NCBI GenBank assembly: GCA_016124585.1
Contig: WGNL01000043.1
Location: forward strand, 1 to 33,075
Source of the DNA: Bacteroidota bacterium
GTDB taxonomy: Bacteria > Bacteroidota > Bacteroidia > Chitinophagales > Saprospiraceae
Direction of reading: 5' to 3'
Length of the DNA stretch: 33,075 nucleotides
Below are positions 6,194 through 30,170 of the stretch, piece after piece; the stretch's first letter is position 1; each line of letters begins with the position of its first letter. Below the pieces are notes generated by a model that ran no database searches, was not told the origin of the DNA, and was given only the letters and a program-made list of their open reading frames with translations. A program made the position numbers and the translations under genes.

Positions 6194-6239
6194 AAACAGC
6201 ATCATGGAAGCTATTTAAATAGCTTCCATGATGCTGTTT
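6194..6239. terminator. Perfect 46-bp palindrome, bidirectional terminator
   Basis: The sequence reads identically on both strands (arms AAACAGCATCATGGAAGC... around centre 6216/6217). It has A-tracts on the left and T-tracts on the right, so transcripts from either side end in a hairpin plus U-run. It lies between convergent genes that stop at 6078 and 6245. Confidence 0.85.
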
Positions 6240-19537: not shown

Positions 19538-21868
19538 TTAGGGTTTTATATGCGCCTTCTGCATTGGGTTCGGCTGCGGCATATCCTTGTTCTTTTTGTA
19601 TACCTGAATCATTTTCGGCTGCGCCGGAATGGGCACGGAATTATTCTTGGTGTCGATATCCGCCGTTTCCCGGTAAGGGTCTAGGCTTACGGATTTAACC
19701 TCTTTATCTTTCACAAAAACCTTGGTCACTTTTTGTTCATCCTTGCGCCAGATTTCAGCGGGGATGCGCTCAATTTCAGTCGTTCCATCCGTAAAAGTCC
19801 ACTCCAAGATGATAGGCATGACCATGCCGCCCTTGTTGGTGAAATTGATTTCGTAGTAGTTCTTCTTGCCGAATTTCTCCTGCTTCTCTTTTTTATCAAA
19901 TACCTCGTCGTACATGATGACCTTGCTAGTCTGCACAGAATCGGCGGTTTCCCAAGGCTTGTAAGTAGTGTAAAAATCAACGAGGTCTGGGTCAGCCTGC
20001 ACAGCGAATTGCATCCCGCTTTCCCGGTTGCGGATTTTGGTGATGTCCTGAAAAGGCTTTTGCGCCTTGTTTGTATTCACCACCTCTTTGGGTTGCGGAT
20101 TGTTGTCGAGGTCCACTTTCAGCCAGGTGATGCTGTCCATGGCGATGTCCACCGGCTCGATTTCATAGAACCAGCCCCGCCAAAACCAGTCAAGGTCAAC
20201 GCCGCTGGCATCTTCCATCGTGCGAAAGAAATCAGCCGGGGATGGGTTCTTAAAAGCCCAACGCTCGCAATACTCCTTAAATGCCGCATCGAAAAGCTCC
20301 CGGCCCATGATGGTTTCCCGAAGGATGGTCAAGCCCGCCGCTGGTTTTGCGTAAGCGTTCATGCCAAACTGCATGATATTGTCACTGTTGGTCATGATTG
20401 GCTCCAATTGGTCTTTTGGCGACGCCATGTAAGCCGTGATGGTGGAAGCCGGGCCTCGACGTAGGTCCCAGTTATTGTCAAATTCCGCTTGCGTGATGGA
20501 TTGGATGAACGTGTTCAAACCCTCGTCCATCCACGACCACTGGCGCTCGTCTGAGTTGATAATCATGGGGAAATAGTTGTGTCCCACTTCGTGAATGATG
20601 ACGCCGATAGCACCTAATTTAGCCCCTTCTGTGTAGGTTCCGTCCTCCTCGGCCCGTCCGAAATTGAAGCAAATCATCGGGTACTCCATGCCGTTTGCCG
20701 CTTCCACGCTGATGGCAGTTGGGTAAGGGTATGGGATAGAATATTTGGAATAAGTCTTCAACGTATGCGCCACCACACGGGTCGAATAGCGGCTGTAAAT
20801 TGGGTAGGATTCCTTGAGGTAGTAGCTCATACACATGGCCTTTTGGCCGTTTTCGTTGAAATGCGGCATGGCATCCCAGATGTAACGGCGGCTGGCGCCC
20901 CAAGCGAAATCCCGCACGTTTTTGGCGGTGTAATGCCAGGTTTTCAGCTTCTTGCTTTTTGGGCTGTTCTGGTTTTTCACGGCCTCATCCAAGGTCACGA
21001 TTTGCACAGGTTCTTTGGCTGTCTGCGCTTCTTTCCAGCGTTTGAGCTGGGTGGCCGTGAGCATCTGGTCGTAGTTCTGGCACTCGCCCGTGGAGGCAAT
21101 CATGTAGTCATCCGGCAGGGTCATTTTCACATCAAAATCCCCAAAGGTCAGCGCAAACTCGCCCCTACCTGTGAACTGCTTATTTTGCCAACCAGTCACA
21201 TCACTATAGACACAAAGTCTTGGATACCATTGGGTGATGGTGAAAAGGTAATTGTCGTCCTTCTCAAAATACTCGTAACCACCCCGGCCACGTGGGCCTT
21301 TGATACGGTCTACGATTTTATAGTTCCATTTCACGTTGAAGACAAAATCCTGTCCCGGTTTCAGTTTTTCCGGCAGGTTTATTTTCATCATCGTTTGGTT
21401 GATGACGTAGTTCAGCGGCTTTCCATTGGCATCCGTCACCGACTCAATATTATGGCCATACTGTGTCAAATCCTTCCATTGTTCCAGCATGTACAGCGCC
21501 TGCGCATCCATGATTTCCTCCACGTTGCTGCCGTTGAAATGGTGGTTGTCATTGTGTCCTTGGTGCTGGTTTTCATCCAATTGCAGCCAGAGGTAATCCA
21601 AGCCGCTGGGGGATTCATTGTGATAGGTGATTTGCTCTGAGCCATGTAAGCGGGTATCGGCAGGGTCGAGTGTTGCCTCAATTTTATAGTCGCAGCGCTG
21701 CTGCCAATATTGCGGGCCGGGCGCTCCGTCCACACCCCGGTAAGGCGTCGGGTCGGGCAGCACGTACTCCAGTTGCTCGAATTTATTGCCGTGGTTGGAT
21801 TTGACTTGGGCGTTGGAAATTTGAAAGGCAAAAAGGAGAATTGCGAACAGTGATAAGCCAAATTTCAT
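19538..21868 (-). CDS. M1 family metallopeptidase, copy A
   Basis: A 776-residue zinc aminopeptidase-like protein with a signal peptide (1-20), so periplasmic or surface. The N-terminal beta saddle domain (about 55-270) precedes the catalytic domain with the GMEYP exopeptidase-like motif (393-397, in place of GAMEN) and the zinc site HEVGH (426-430) plus Glu449 in WMDEG, the HEXXH-X18-E spacing. There is no T9SS tail; the end is basic (MQKAHIKP). Much of the protein matches the 796-residue copy at 23280-25670, including the fragments MIINSDERQW, EDASGVDLDWFWRGWF and MEYPMICFN. It is followed at 6 bases by the CxxC protein and preceded by a DUF6702 gene. Confidence 0.93.
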   Translation of the reverse strand: MKFGLSLFAILLFAFQISNAQVKSNHGNKFEQLEYVLPDPTPYRGVDGAPGPQYWQQRCDYKIEATLDPADTRLHGSEQITYHNESPSGLDYLWLQLDENQHQGHNDNHHFNGSNVEEIMDAQALYMLEQWKDLTQYGHNIESVTDANGKPLNYVINQTMMKINLPEKLKPGQDFVFNVKWNYKIVDRIKGPRGRGGYEYFEKDDNYLFTITQWYPRLCVYSDVTGWQNKQFTGRGEFALTFGDFDVKMTLPDDYMIASTGECQNYDQMLTATQLKRWKEAQTAKEPVQIVTLDEAVKNQNSPKSKKLKTWHYTAKNVRDFAWGASRRYIWDAMPHFNENGQKAMCMSYYLKESYPIYSRYSTRVVAHTLKTYSKYSIPYPYPTAISVEAANGMEYPMICFNFGRAEEDGTYTEGAKLGAIGVIIHEVGHNYFPMIINSDERQWSWMDEGLNTFIQSITQAEFDNNWDLRRGPASTITAYMASPKDQLEPIMTNSDNIMQFGMNAYAKPAAGLTILRETIMGRELFDAAFKEYCERWAFKNPSPADFFRTMEDASGVDLDWFWRGWFYEIEPVDIAMDSITWLKVDLDNNPQPKEVVNTNKAQKPFQDITKIRNRESGMQFAVQADPDLVDFYTTYKPWETADSVQTSKVIMYDEVFDKKEKQEKFGKKNYYEINFTNKGGMVMPIILEWTFTDGTTEIERIPAEIWRKDEQKVTKVFVKDKEVKSVSLDPYRETADIDTKNNSVPIPAQPKMIQVYKKNKDMPQPNPMQKAHIKP

Positions 21869-23279: not shown

Positions 23280-25670
23280 TTAAGGCTTTAATTGCTTCCG
23301 CTTCTTCGCCTTTTGCATCATGTTCTCCCCCGGCTCGAACTTGTTCTTTTTATAGACCATGAACAGCTTCGGCTCGGTGGGCATGGGGCGGGTGTTGTTC
23401 GATTCGTCCACATCGGCGGTTTCCCGCCAAGGGTCGAGTTTGACGGATTTCACCTCCTTGTTTTTCACAAAAACTTGCGTGAATTTCTGTTCGTTTTTAC
23501 GCCAAATCTCCACGGGGATGCGTTCGATTTCCTTGGTGCCATCGGTGAAAGTCCATTCCAAAATCACGGGCGTCACCAGTCCGCCTTTGTTGCTGAACCG
23601 CAGTTCGTAATAGTTTTTATCACCGAAAAGCTCCTTTTTTTCCTTTTTGGAATACAACTCATCGTAGCGCTTGAGGATGTTCGTTTGCGTGCTGTCCGCA
23701 GTTTCCCAAGGCTTGTAGTTGGTGTAAAAATCAACGAGCGCCGTGTCCTTTTCCACGGGGAATTGCTTCACCTCCTCCCGGTAGCGGGAGGCGGTCAGCG
23801 TCTGGAACGGCTGCTTGATTTTATTGGTGAACGTGTCCACTTTCGGCTCCGGGTTATTCTCCAAATCCACTTTCAGCCACTCAATGCTGTCCAGCGATAC
23901 GTCCACTTTTTCGATGGTAAAAAACCAGCCCCGCCAGAACCAGTCGAGGTCCATGCCGCTGGCGTCTTCCATTGTCCGGAAGAAATCGGCGGGTGTCGGG
24001 TGCTTGAAGGCCCATTTCCGGCAGTATTCCTTGAAGGCGTAATCGAATTGCTCACGCCCCATCACCGTTTCACGAAGGATGTTCAGCGCCGTGGCAGGCT
24101 TCCGGTAGGCATTCGAGAAATAGTCCACGATGTCCTCCGAATTAGTCATGATGGGTTCCAGATTGTCCGGGTCGGAATTCATGTAGTTGGTAATCATATG
24201 CGGCGGGCCTTCGTTGGAGTCATAGTTGTTATCCCATTCCTGCTCCGCAATGTACTGCATGAAAGTGTTGATACCCTCGTCGAACCACGCCCACTGGCGC
24301 TCGTCGGAGTTGATAATCATGGGGAAAAAATTGTGGCCTACTTCGTGGAAAATCACCGTCAGGCAAGCATTCTTGGCGCCTTCGGAATAGGTGCCGTCCT
24401 CCGCTGCACGGCCCGGATTGAAGCAAATCATCGGGTATTCCATGCCGTTCTGCGCCTCCACGCTGAGGGCAGAGGGGTACGGGAACGGGATGGCAAACTT
24501 ACCATAGGTCAAAATTGTGTGCGCCACGGCCTTTGTGCTGTAGCGGTGGTAAATCGGGTAAGATTCCTTCGGATAATAGCTCATCGTCATCACGGGTTTC
24601 CCATCCTGGTTTTTCACCGACATGGCATCCCAGATAAAGCGGCGGCAAGCTGTCCAAGCAAAATCCCGCACATTTTCGGCCTTGTAATGCCAAGTTTTCA
24701 GGTCCTTGGATTTCTTTTTTTTCTCGGTTTTGTTCGCCTCTTCCAGCGTCACGATGTCCACAGGTTCGCTGCTGGCCTGCGCTTTTTTCCAGCGTTGGAG
24801 CTGTTCCGGCGTGAGCGTTTCTTCGTAATTCTGGCAAAGTCCCGTACCGCCCACGATGTAGTCGGAAGGCAAAGTCATTTTCACATCGTAATTGCCAAAA
24901 TTCAGCGCAAACTCGCCAGTGCCCGTGAACTGGTCACTCTGCCAGCCTTCGAAATCCGAATAAACACACATACGGGGAAACCACTGCGTGATGGTGAACA
25001 GGTAGTTTTCATCTTTTTCAAAATACTCGTAGCCACCCCGGCCAAATGTGATATTGTTGATGCGGTCAATGAGCACGTAGCTCCATTCGATATTGAACTC
25101 GAAATCTTGGCCCGGTGCCAGCGGCTGCGGCAGTTCCACCCGCATCACCGTGTTGTCGATGAAATGCTTGAGTGGCTTGCCGACCTTGTCCGTCACCGAC
25201 TTGATTTTATGGCCGTAGTCGGCAAAATACGTCCATGATTCCAGCATTTTCATGGCATTCTCGTTCATGGTTTTGCCCACATCGTGTGGGTGCGAGTGAT
25301 GGAGGTCGTTGTCGGCGGCGTGCTCGTTTTCATCGAGCTGGAGCCAGAGGTAGCGCAGGGTCTGCGGCGAATTGTTGTGATAAGTGAGGTGCTCCTTGCC
25401 CGTCAGTTGGTGCTTGTCCGGGTCGAGCGTCGCTTCGATTTGATAGTCGCAGCGCTGCTGCCAGTAGGCTGGGCCGGGCGAACCATCAGCAGTGCGGTAC
25501 TCGTTCGGGCTGGGCAGCATGGTGCCCAATTGCTCAAAAGCAAAGCCGTGGTTGCTCTTTTTCGGGGCTGTCTCAGCGGGTTTTTCTTTTTCTTGGGCAA
25601 ATGTTGCCGTTGCCGCTAGGCAAAAAAACAAGATCAAAAATTGGCCAAACTTGGTAAGTTTCAAGTTCAT
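23280..25670 (-). CDS. M1 family metallopeptidase, copy B
   Basis: A 796-residue paralogue of copy A with the same order of parts: signal peptide (1-25, ending TFAQ), saddle domain, GMEYP (409-413), zinc site HEVGH (442-446) and Glu465 in WFDEG. It differs in a longer N-terminal Lys/Glu/Pro linker and a more basic C-terminus (MQKAKKRKQLKP). Both copies keep all catalytic residues, so both are probably active. Family members remove N-terminal residues from peptides, here probably in the periplasm. It is the first gene of the minus-strand cluster with HupE-like, DUF6702, M1 copy A and the CxxC gene. Confidence 0.93.
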   Translation of the reverse strand: MNLKLTKFGQFLILFFCLAATATFAQEKEKPAETAPKKSNHGFAFEQLGTMLPSPNEYRTADGSPGPAYWQQRCDYQIEATLDPDKHQLTGKEHLTYHNNSPQTLRYLWLQLDENEHAADNDLHHSHPHDVGKTMNENAMKMLESWTYFADYGHKIKSVTDKVGKPLKHFIDNTVMRVELPQPLAPGQDFEFNIEWSYVLIDRINNITFGRGGYEYFEKDENYLFTITQWFPRMCVYSDFEGWQSDQFTGTGEFALNFGNYDVKMTLPSDYIVGGTGLCQNYEETLTPEQLQRWKKAQASSEPVDIVTLEEANKTEKKKKSKDLKTWHYKAENVRDFAWTACRRFIWDAMSVKNQDGKPVMTMSYYPKESYPIYHRYSTKAVAHTILTYGKFAIPFPYPSALSVEAQNGMEYPMICFNPGRAAEDGTYSEGAKNACLTVIFHEVGHNFFPMIINSDERQWAWFDEGINTFMQYIAEQEWDNNYDSNEGPPHMITNYMNSDPDNLEPIMTNSEDIVDYFSNAYRKPATALNILRETVMGREQFDYAFKEYCRKWAFKHPTPADFFRTMEDASGMDLDWFWRGWFFTIEKVDVSLDSIEWLKVDLENNPEPKVDTFTNKIKQPFQTLTASRYREEVKQFPVEKDTALVDFYTNYKPWETADSTQTNILKRYDELYSKKEKKELFGDKNYYELRFSNKGGLVTPVILEWTFTDGTKEIERIPVEIWRKNEQKFTQVFVKNKEVKSVKLDPWRETADVDESNNTRPMPTEPKLFMVYKKNKFEPGENMMQKAKKRKQLKP

Positions 25671-27999: not shown

Positions 28000-28181
28000 G
28001 TTGAAATTTATTGAGAGATTTTTACGAACTGCAATTTGCAACGTTTTTTAGAAAAAAGTAAACACAAACAAATAGTGTCAAAATATTCGACTTAGAAGCG
28101 ATTTTTGCAAAAGACAATTTCAAAATTATTAGCTATGCCTATTATTTTTTGAAAATGTTGAAAAATTTTAAAAACAAATTG

Positions 28182-28213
28182 TTGTTTTTAAAATTCCCCT
28201 GCGCTACCTTTGC
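28182..28213 (+). promoter_or_regulatory. umuD: Promoter of umuDC
   Basis: TTG (28182-28184), a 20-base spacer and TACCTTTGC (28205-28213) match the Bacteroidota promoter. The overlapping AACAAATTGTT dyad at 28174-28184 could be an operator, since umuDC is damage-induced in many bacteria, but I see no canonical LexA box. The predicted leader is about 240 bases and would include the whole structured element at 28290-28452. Confidence 0.55.
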
Positions 28214-28289
28214 CCGCACACTTCCCCCACACTCGCCCGACATATTTCTGAGTTACTGGCTTTCATTTTTTAAACATACTGTAAAACTC

Positions 28290-28452
28290 AGACTGTGTTC
28301 AGGTTTTGGGTTTCGAGTGGAAAATTGTCAATTTTTCGATGATACAAGGCGGAAAATTGGGAGCCTAGCTGGGCTAAGCGACCAATTTTTCAACGAAGTA
28401 GCATCGAAATAGAGGCGATTTTACGCCGGAAGCCAAAGCCTGAACACAGTCT
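28290..28452. repeat. 163-bp multibranch inverted-repeat element before umuD
   Basis: Outer arms 28290-28309 (AGACTGTGTTCAGGTTTTGG) and 28433-28452 pair at all 20 positions with one G-T wobble, then after a mismatch at four more. Inside, 28334-28345 pairs with 28398-28409 (11 of 12), 28351-28360 pairs with 28382-28391 (10 pairs, one a wobble), and GGCG/CGCC forms a small hairpin (28414-28427). The whole folds as a stalk with at least two branches. It could be a MITE-like transposon remnant or a structured RNA leader. No target duplication is visible. Confidence 0.82.
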
Positions 28453-28464
28453 TAATGATTGGAT

Positions 28465-28908
28465 ATGCAGACTTATGCTGAAGGGATTTCTATTGTCCAA
28501 TTTGACCTGACACAGCTTGCCAACTGTGATATTTCATGGTTCGATGGGGGCATTTCCGCAGGCTTCCCCTCCCCTGCCACCGACTACATGGAGCAGGGCA
28601 TTGACCTGCACCGAGAGCTTATCAAGAACCCATCTTCCACTTTTTTCTGCCGGGTCGAGGGCAATTCGATGGAGGGCGACGGCATCTGCGACGGCGACAT
28701 CATCATCGTGGACAAGTCGCTCCCGGCCAAGGATGGTAAGCTCGTGGTCTGCTTTCTCGACGGCGGTTTTGTCCTGAAAAGACTGAAAATAACAGGCAAA
28801 TCGGTGTACCTGCTACCTTCCAACCCCCGCTACCCTGTGCTAAACGTGACCGATGAAAACGACTTCCGCATCTGGGGCATTGTCACCTGCGTCATCAGTA
28901 AAAAATGA
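28465..28908 (+). CDS. umuD: UmuD-like S24 peptidase, polymerase V accessory subunit
   Basis: A 147-residue self-cleaving protein. Catalytic Ser68 is in [14 protein letters not shown] and Lys105 in GGFVLKRL, spaced 37 residues apart as in E. coli UmuD (Ser60/Lys97). The cleavage site is Ala32-Gly33 in [11 protein letters not shown], where E. coli has Cys-Gly. There is no DNA-binding domain, so it is UmuD rather than LexA. After cleavage UmuD' would join UmuC to form a translesion polymerase. I chose the ATG at 28465; a TTG two codons earlier (28459) is possible. Its stop overlaps the umuC start (ATGA). A palindromic element ends 12 bases before the start codon. Confidence 0.92.
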
Positions 28909-30170
28909 TAGGACTTATTGACTGCAACAATTTTTACGTGTCGTGCGAGCGGGTGTTCAATCCCTCGCTGGAAGGCAAACCCGTCGTCGTGTTGAGCAAC
29001 AACGATGGCTGTATCATTTCCCGCAGTGACGAGGCGAAAGCACTCGGCGTACCGATGGGTGTACCAGTACATGAGGTGAAGTACCTGTTGGAAAAGCACA
29101 AAGTCGTCATGCATTCTTCCAATTACCCGCTCTATGGCGACATGTCGAATCGTGTAGTAGCCATTTTGCAAGAATTGGTATCTGAACTGGAGATTTATTC
29201 GATTGATGAAATGTTCCTTGATTTTTCGGGATTCAAGAAGGCACAACTGACTGATTTGGCTCGACAGGTGGTGAAGCAGGTTCACAAAAATACAGGCATA
29301 CCAGTTTCGCTGGGCATTGCTCCGACAAAGGCACTTGCCAAAGCAGCAAACCGCATTGCCCGAAAAGAATTCCCGAAGGAAAGGTTCTTTAAGATAAATG
29401 AAAACGAACAGGAAATTGCAAACGTACTGCGCAATTTCCCTGTGGAGAGCATCTGGGGGATAGGAAGGAGATATGCTCCTTTTTTTAAAAAGCACCATAT
29501 TGAAACAGCGCTCCAGTTCATCCAAGCGCCCGAAGGCTGGATACGTGCCTCAATGGGCGTCACGGGCGTCCGCCTCTGGCGGGAGATGCAGGGTATGCCG
29601 TCCGATATGCTCGACCCAGACACCTTGCCCAAGAAGAACATCTGTACGTCAAGGTCGTTTGGAGAGCTGCTCACGGATTATACACTCATTGAGCAGGCAG
29701 TGGCTAGTTTCGCCGTCCGTTGTGCTGAGAAACTGCGGAGGCAGGGTAGTTGCGCCGGAATTCTCAACGTCTCGTTGCACACCAACCCTTCCCGCAAGGA
29801 TTTGCCACAATACCATAATAGCGCCACCATGCGCTTGGCCGTTGCCTCCAATAGCTCCATTGTGTTGGCACAACAAGCAATACGGGGATTGAAAGCCATT
29901 TTCAAGGAGGGTTATCGGTACAAAAAAGCAGGAGTCATCGTGTCAGAACTTGTCCCGAAAGATAGGGTGCAGGCCACACTTTTCAGTGACGACCAACCAG
30001 AAAAGCACGCCCAACTCATGGCTGTCATGGATGCCATGAACCTCAAGCATGGCATGGACAAAGTACGGTTACTGAGCCAAGGCTACGACCGCCGCTGGAA
30101 ATCCAAGCAGGAAAGGCTGTCGCAGGGTTTTACGACGAATATGCGGGAGGTGGTGATATTAAAAATATAA
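28905..30170 (+). CDS. umuC: UmuC, Y-family DNA polymerase V catalytic subunit
   Basis: A 421-residue error-prone DNA polymerase. Catalytic acidic residues are Asp6 ([12 protein letters not shown]) and Asp101-Glu102 ([10 protein letters not shown]), with the fingers motif [18 protein letters not shown] helix-hairpin-helix-type segment ([15 protein letters not shown]) and the little-finger region follow, and the C-terminal UmuC domain ([11 protein letters not shown]...) is present. Full length for the family. It is translationally coupled to umuD by a 4-base overlap. The following 141 bases to the convergent gene show no clear terminator. Confidence 0.95.

Follow-up and report, generated by a model that had tools for sequence, protein, structure and literature searches.

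A MITE-like element with a conserved, covarying and polar core between promoter and umuD of a sporadic umuDC operon

Why a long inverted-repeat element should lie between the promoter and the first start codon of a umuDC operon is the question raised by the stretch of DNA analysed here (the window; 33,075 bp of contig WGNL01000043.1, from a Saprospiraceae bacterium). The initial annotation allowed two answers, namely that a MITE-like element has captured the leader of the operon, or that the leader is a structured RNA controlling translesion synthesis. The operon is sporadic: umuD is matched in just one of 14 genomes of the genus and in 6 of 40 relatives (the own genome being counted in both). 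Upstream of umuD, the sequence TTG-N20-TACCTTTG matches what we take to be the Bacteroidota promoter consensus, and it holds the only exact TAnnTTTG on the plus strand between 28000 and 28470. The TTG/TAnnTTTG pair is found five times in the window (three on the plus and two on the minus strand), so the motif alone is weak evidence and the umuD promoter is plausible but unproven. This promoter is absent from the output of a sigma-70 scan, which on the plus strand gave only TTTAAA-16-TAAAAT at 28167-28194. There is no space for a second promoter between the hairpin element and the umuD ATG. A MITE would have been inserted between the umuDC promoter and umuD, and with this position the umuDC transcript should carry the element.

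The branched inverted-repeat element claimed for the leader is present, as one long branched hairpin between promoter and umuD (Table 1). Its inverted repeat (28290-28315 with 28427-28452) has 26-nt arms that are 88% complementary. The details first described were also recovered, including a 20-bp outer stem with one wobble (28290-28309 with 28433-28452), whose last base lies 12 bases 5' of the ATG at 28465, and the inner helices 28334-28345/28398-28409 and 28351-28360/28382-28391, both of which are present in the minimum-energy fold. The leader folds at -96.6 kcal/mol (z -7.27), whereas 200 shuffled versions average -63.15 (sd 4.6) and not one of them reaches its stability. The flanks TCA and TTA make 28291-28451 the likely extent of the element. 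As expected of a MITE it is short, has copies dispersed over unrelated sites, carries the 19-20 bp outer stem as terminal inverted repeats and lacks a transposase; in the list of open reading frames of at least 80 aa, the sole overlap is with a frame of 87 aa (28149-28412) whose start lies beyond the element. At gathering score, Rfam gave no match in the window, and at 20 loci with copies it gave two tRNAs and nothing else. A known riboswitch or leader family was considered and rejected, the lone match at E<=1 in 28150-28500 being BtsR1, whose 16.6 bits fall short of the cut-off of 66.

Table 1. Features of the umuDC region, in window coordinates.
Feature	Position	Strand	Basis or remark
Palindrome AATTTTAAAAACAA-N4-TTGTTTTTAAAATT, perfect 14-bp arms, 4-bp spacer	28164..28195	.	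overlaps -33 region of umuD promoter
Bacteroidota-type promoter TTG-N20-TACCTTTG	28182..28212	+	motif scan; consensus presumed
Left flank TCA, probable target-site duplication (differs from right flank at one base)	28288..28290	+	class rule TNA
MITE-like element of 161 bp, in the same orientation as umuDC	28291..28451	+	repeat search, fold, copies elsewhere
Left terminal inverted repeat GACTGTGTTCAGGTTTTGG	28291..28309	+	repeat search, boundary assignment
Conserved structured core, model R1 (91 positions, 22 pairs)	28327..28417	+	92.6 bits (this copy is among the 17 sequences used to build R1)
Right terminal inverted repeat	28433..28451	-	repeat search, boundary assignment
Right flank TTA	28452..28454	+	boundary assignment
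umuD	28465..28908	+	Peptidase_S24 (Pfam); NCBIfam NF007621, 149.6 bits
umuC	28905..30170	+	Pfam IMS, IMS_C, DUF4113; NCBIfam NF002955, 373.7 bits, under cut-off 431

Genome searches showed that the element recurs and is not private to umuDC. BLAST with the element found two additional copies in the own genome (79% and 73% identity) and, counting the own genome, matches in 11 of 199 genomes from the family. Both ends could be assigned in 21 copies, including that of the window, after exclusion of L041, L044, L047, L052 and L057 (contig-end cuts, repeats or no recognisable element); 13 of the 21 measure 160-162 bp and the others 166-213. Most of them form the same branched hairpin, with L003 folding differently. 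A covariance model of the 91-nt core, with up to 108 candidates scored per genome, extended the family, with matches in at least 21 of 40 relatives (own genome included) and, per genome, at least 104 in G206, 68 in G210, 67 in G207 and four in the own genome. Among 296 genomes sampled evenly across the phylum, and under stricter filters, three had matches at E<=1e-4, namely the own genome and two from outside the family. The family of one of these two carriers, a second family of the class, has core-model matches (E<=0.001) in 4 of 41 genomes. A motif pattern gave two matches in viral contigs, neither of which was scored by the core model, and BLAST gave no match for four copies against plasmids or for one copy against phages. 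Neither Rfam nor text searches of the literature, which cannot detect a sequence, gave a description of this core.

Some loci depart from the standard form. A locus of the own genome (L275; G000:C43, around 68,840-68,981), with a pair of GAC.GTGTTCGGA termini spaced by about 151 bp, is not among the core-model matches listed and is probably a decayed copy. In G206, a 77-bp deletion derivative of the AGACATC class (L145, C169, 1071-1147) retains intact termini and has lost the core. In G417, a carrier with a single-contig genome, two copies (L256 and L259) have the right half past the core swapped for other sequence, possibly a recombinant terminus.

Termini and target sites bear on how the copies may have moved. 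Of 107 core matches, 103 could be extracted with flanks (four were cut by contig ends), and 79 of these, with distinct flanks, were given a boundary at G. Members of the IS1031-like group of the IS5 family have GAG-type termini and produce 3-bp TNA duplications. In the GAG/GACYGTG class TNA stands on both sides in 29 of 41 copies, and the middle base is equal in 25 of these 29 (chance 0.41, p 9e-7, with a boundary finder that gave a small bonus for equal flanks). The whole 3-bp flanks are identical in 25 of the 41; those of the window copy (TCA/TTA) differ by one mismatch and fit TNA. Identical flanks are also found in 13 of 24 copies beginning GG, in none of eight with another start type and, in the form ANT, in 7 of 8 intact copies of the AGACATC class (by eye). 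Ends of the IS5/IS1031 type and TNA duplications thus occur at the level of the class, the window copy itself beginning GAC and having unequal flanks.

A search for DDE_Tnp_1 in eight genomes gave a single match in the own genome. It belongs to an 878-bp IS with 14-nt identical ends (GAGGTTGTTTAAAA) and flanks TTA and TAA, unequal at the middle base, whose transposase falls in the IS5 family (NF033580, 197 bits). The ends of this IS are near those of the own-genome copy L002 and are related, not identical, to the terminus of the window copy, which at fewer than two mismatches occurs nowhere else in the own genome. Termini related to that of the window are found in 6 of 14 genus genomes including the own, with 17 sites in G209. 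The own genome also has a near-terminus-only derivative of 54 bp (L032, G000:C33:50007-50062; 56 bp with the flanking A and T), which has TAA on both sides and lies closely 5' of an ATG. Inspection by eye of the beginnings of reading frames revealed no transposase of an autonomous partner at single terminal sites, comprising 12 genus loci of GACYGTG type and four G206 loci of the AGACATC class. Incidental inspection showed no likeness of the MITE core to the interior of the IS. No empty site of the element was found; umuD matches just the one genus genome, and the gene to the left of umuDC has matches in 3 of 14 (at 39% outside the own genome). The class to which the window element belongs shares with IS1031-like members of the IS5 family the GAG-type termini and 3-bp TNA duplications, and a complete IS of this family lies in the own genome; the element differs from such an IS in its lack of a transposase. 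On this evidence the leader very probably holds one 161-bp copy of a MITE with TNA target sites, which an IS5-family (IS1031-like) transposase would have mobilised in trans.

Similar elements have been described elsewhere in bacteria. QMITE2 of Coxiella and MITECca01 of Cardinium are short, transposase-less elements with terminal repeats, often intergenic, whose transcripts are predicted to form stable folds (PMC10969869, PMC9769881). The window element is likewise short, has terminal repeats and lacks a transposase. MITECca01 was derived from an IS982-family element and retains some of its sequence (PMC9769881, PMC10969869), unlike the family described here, in which a covarying core is joined to different termini.

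Covariation across relatives, proposed in the initial annotation as a check, proved to be abundant across the element family. In 17 cores found by BLAST, and hence with no use of structure in the search, 95.5% of cells pair, compared with 49-62% when partners are slid, and double-change cells number 72 compared with 12-32. Another 18 ungapped 91-nt cores, with at most 85% identity to the 91-nt members of the first set and to each other, show 94.4% of cells paired (49-60% slid, at most 72.7% in 500 shuffles), a set that came from the model search, which rewards pairing. When the fold of the window copy was laid on 13 other full-length copies, 91.3% of cells pair compared with 41-52% slid; the changed cells comprise 114 with compensation at both partners, 72 altered at one partner and still paired, and 72 broken. 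However, 84 of the 114 double-change cells lie in the termini, where double changes could be explained by the transposase alone, and the core holds 24 compared with 20 when slid by one. Covariation of the core therefore rests on the sets of 17 and 18 cores.

Long near-perfect palindromes are prone to templated correction, and the termini must match for the transposase anyway, so that complementarity might be maintained by palindrome-templated DNA repair and not by selection on the fold. However, the internal-loop bases RAGGCG opposite AACGAAG are among the best conserved columns, conserved as mismatches that remain uncorrected, and the one-strand excess of G.T over A.C described below is not expected from a strand-neutral process. 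Templated repair is, on this evidence, an improbable account of the complementarity.

In a neutral palindrome A.C and G.T mismatches are expected in equal number. When pairs were defined irrespective of wobble, 69 G.T and 34 A.C were counted in the 21 copies found by BLAST, and the sense strand folds better in 20 of 21. The same was found in 67 copies oriented solely by a sequence motif (240 G.T and 113 A.C; sense better in 66). The other 36 of the 103 distinct copies, which the motif did not clearly orient, were excluded; one of these reads the opposite way. RNAalifold gives -19.0 kcal/mol for the sense alignment and -4.1 for the antisense, and the window copy folds at -86.1 kcal/mol in sense and -63.3 in antisense. 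Because copies share ancestry the counts are inflated, and by columns G.T is ahead in 11 and A.C in two (p 0.02). The excess is 56 to 22 in the terminal stem and weak in the interior alone (108 to 74, p 0.014). Together with the covariation of the core and its one-strand fold, this excess suggests selection on a single strand of fixed polarity, for which the strand data are fair evidence and which would most simply be RNA. The core of about 90 nt retains its fold and its conserved internal loops, and the termini differ between classes.

The gene context of the copies bears on whether the host makes use of this fold. After repeats and copies near contig ends were dropped, 95 of the 103 extracted copies remained, 20 of which overlap naive ORFs (some possibly spurious) and 74 of which have a naive gene call on both sides. 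Within 60 nt these 74 copies adjoin 37 gene starts and 29 gene ends (p 0.39), with 19 of the 37 leaders carrying the core in sense and 18 in antisense. Since copies lie near starts about as often as near ends and in either orientation, there is no sign of retention as leaders. The core model also gave no match at nine further umuD-homologue loci (L060-L068). A cis-acting RNA switch dedicated to umuDC, which would set its translation or message stability after DNA damage, would agree with the place of the element between promoter and umuD, its very stable fold and its more stable sense orientation, and in silico removal of the element raises the openness of -18..-1 from 0.25 to 0.41. However, the openness of -12..+6 moves the opposite way (0.38 with the element, 0.28 without) and that of +1..+15 is unchanged, so no clear effect on the umuD start is predicted. 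Sequestration of the start codon was rejected as a candidate on these mixed values. With copies adjoining so many genes, near starts as well as ends and in either orientation, and with no core-model match at the nine other umuD loci, such a switch is very improbable.

The two answers offered at the outset thus fared differently: copies elsewhere, length, terminal repeats, the TNA flanks of the class and the IS5 element in the genome all favour the MITE, while structured RNA control specific to umuDC is unsupported. As evidence against its own reading, the initial annotation had also named many copies that bear no relation to gene starts and lack compensatory changes; the first part was observed, but compensatory changes are present.

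An effect of the MITE insertion on umuDC is nevertheless plausible, the likeliest being incidental: a stable 5'-leader hairpin might be a substrate of RNase III or change the stability of the message. The closest precedent is found in the Correia repeat enclosed elements (CREE/NEMIS) of Neisseria, which have a long form of 153-157 bp, inverted repeats and a directional core; one of them separates the mtrCDE genes from their native promoter and undergoes transcription and RNase III cleavage (PMC2649163). The element described here resembles these in length, inverted repeats, directional core and place between promoter and genes. The same report gives CREE ends as CCGGTACGG (PMC2649163), whereas the window copy begins GACTGTG and does not share that terminal sequence. 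Also unlike CREE, the single core here is combined with many different termini and is present in two families of one class.

That one core of about 90 nt is common to copies with different termini is directly visible in the core-model matches. Grouped by eye, these have as termini GAGCATGTTTGGA, AGACATCTTTCC, AGACTTTATTCTG, AAGTAGGTGGA, AAGTAGTCGGA, AGGAACG, AGGGAACAA, AGGGGTCGGCG, AGAAGCCATCTC and ATACCAATTT, among others, and GGGCACCTCTA occurs among copies found by BLAST. The folded strand would, on this reading, serve the element and not host genes. It is possible, although doubtful, that the core is instead a DNA or single-stranded-DNA site for transposition or replication of the element. 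The lack of orientation bias with respect to host genes agrees with such a site, and single-stranded DNA, in which G.T is better tolerated than A.C, could give polarity. However, IS5-type cut-and-paste transposition uses double-stranded ends, and the core is common to copies whose termini differ.

For RNA as the selected form, a wider proposal can be put forward tentatively: a mobile structured-RNA module, a fixed-polarity core of about 90 nt, may have spread among Bacteroidota in elements of about 160 bp whose termini were repeatedly exchanged or re-evolved. Different IS5-type transposases would then move the same RNA, and the core might, for example, protect or regulate the transcript of the element or recruit a host RNA-binding protein. 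Bacterial MITEs are usually viewed as internal deletions of IS elements whose interior is of little importance. Here the interior is conserved and the termini vary, and both covariation and strand asymmetry are testable, so that the question of why MITEs keep hairpins becomes open to experiment. As a MITE-like insertion into a umuDC leader the element is ordinary in kind, but it belongs to a family that combines a conserved, covarying and polar core with changing termini, and it cautions against taking every stable leader hairpin for a regulator.

Damage control of umuDC is more likely seated in the promoter and the palindrome that overlaps it than in the element. Markov randomisation of the surrounding 300 bp gave no like repeat in 500 copies, and the palindrome is a candidate operator for a damage-response repressor. 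Two Bacteroidetes SOS boxes, GGA-N5-TCC and CTAA-N5-TTAG, have been published (PMC8565304); the palindrome differs from both, and in 28000-28520 neither has an exact or one-mismatch match. Two-mismatch matches of the CTAA type number five in the same interval.

Three further features of the window were noted. At its contig end (10-405) there is an in-frame tandem run of SATSRAL-like units. Two similar long frames on the minus strand (19538-21868 and 23280-25670) have by eye the look of peptidase paralogues. A perfect palindrome with 23-bp arms and no spacer (6194-6239) lies between convergent reading frames and is probably a two-way terminator.
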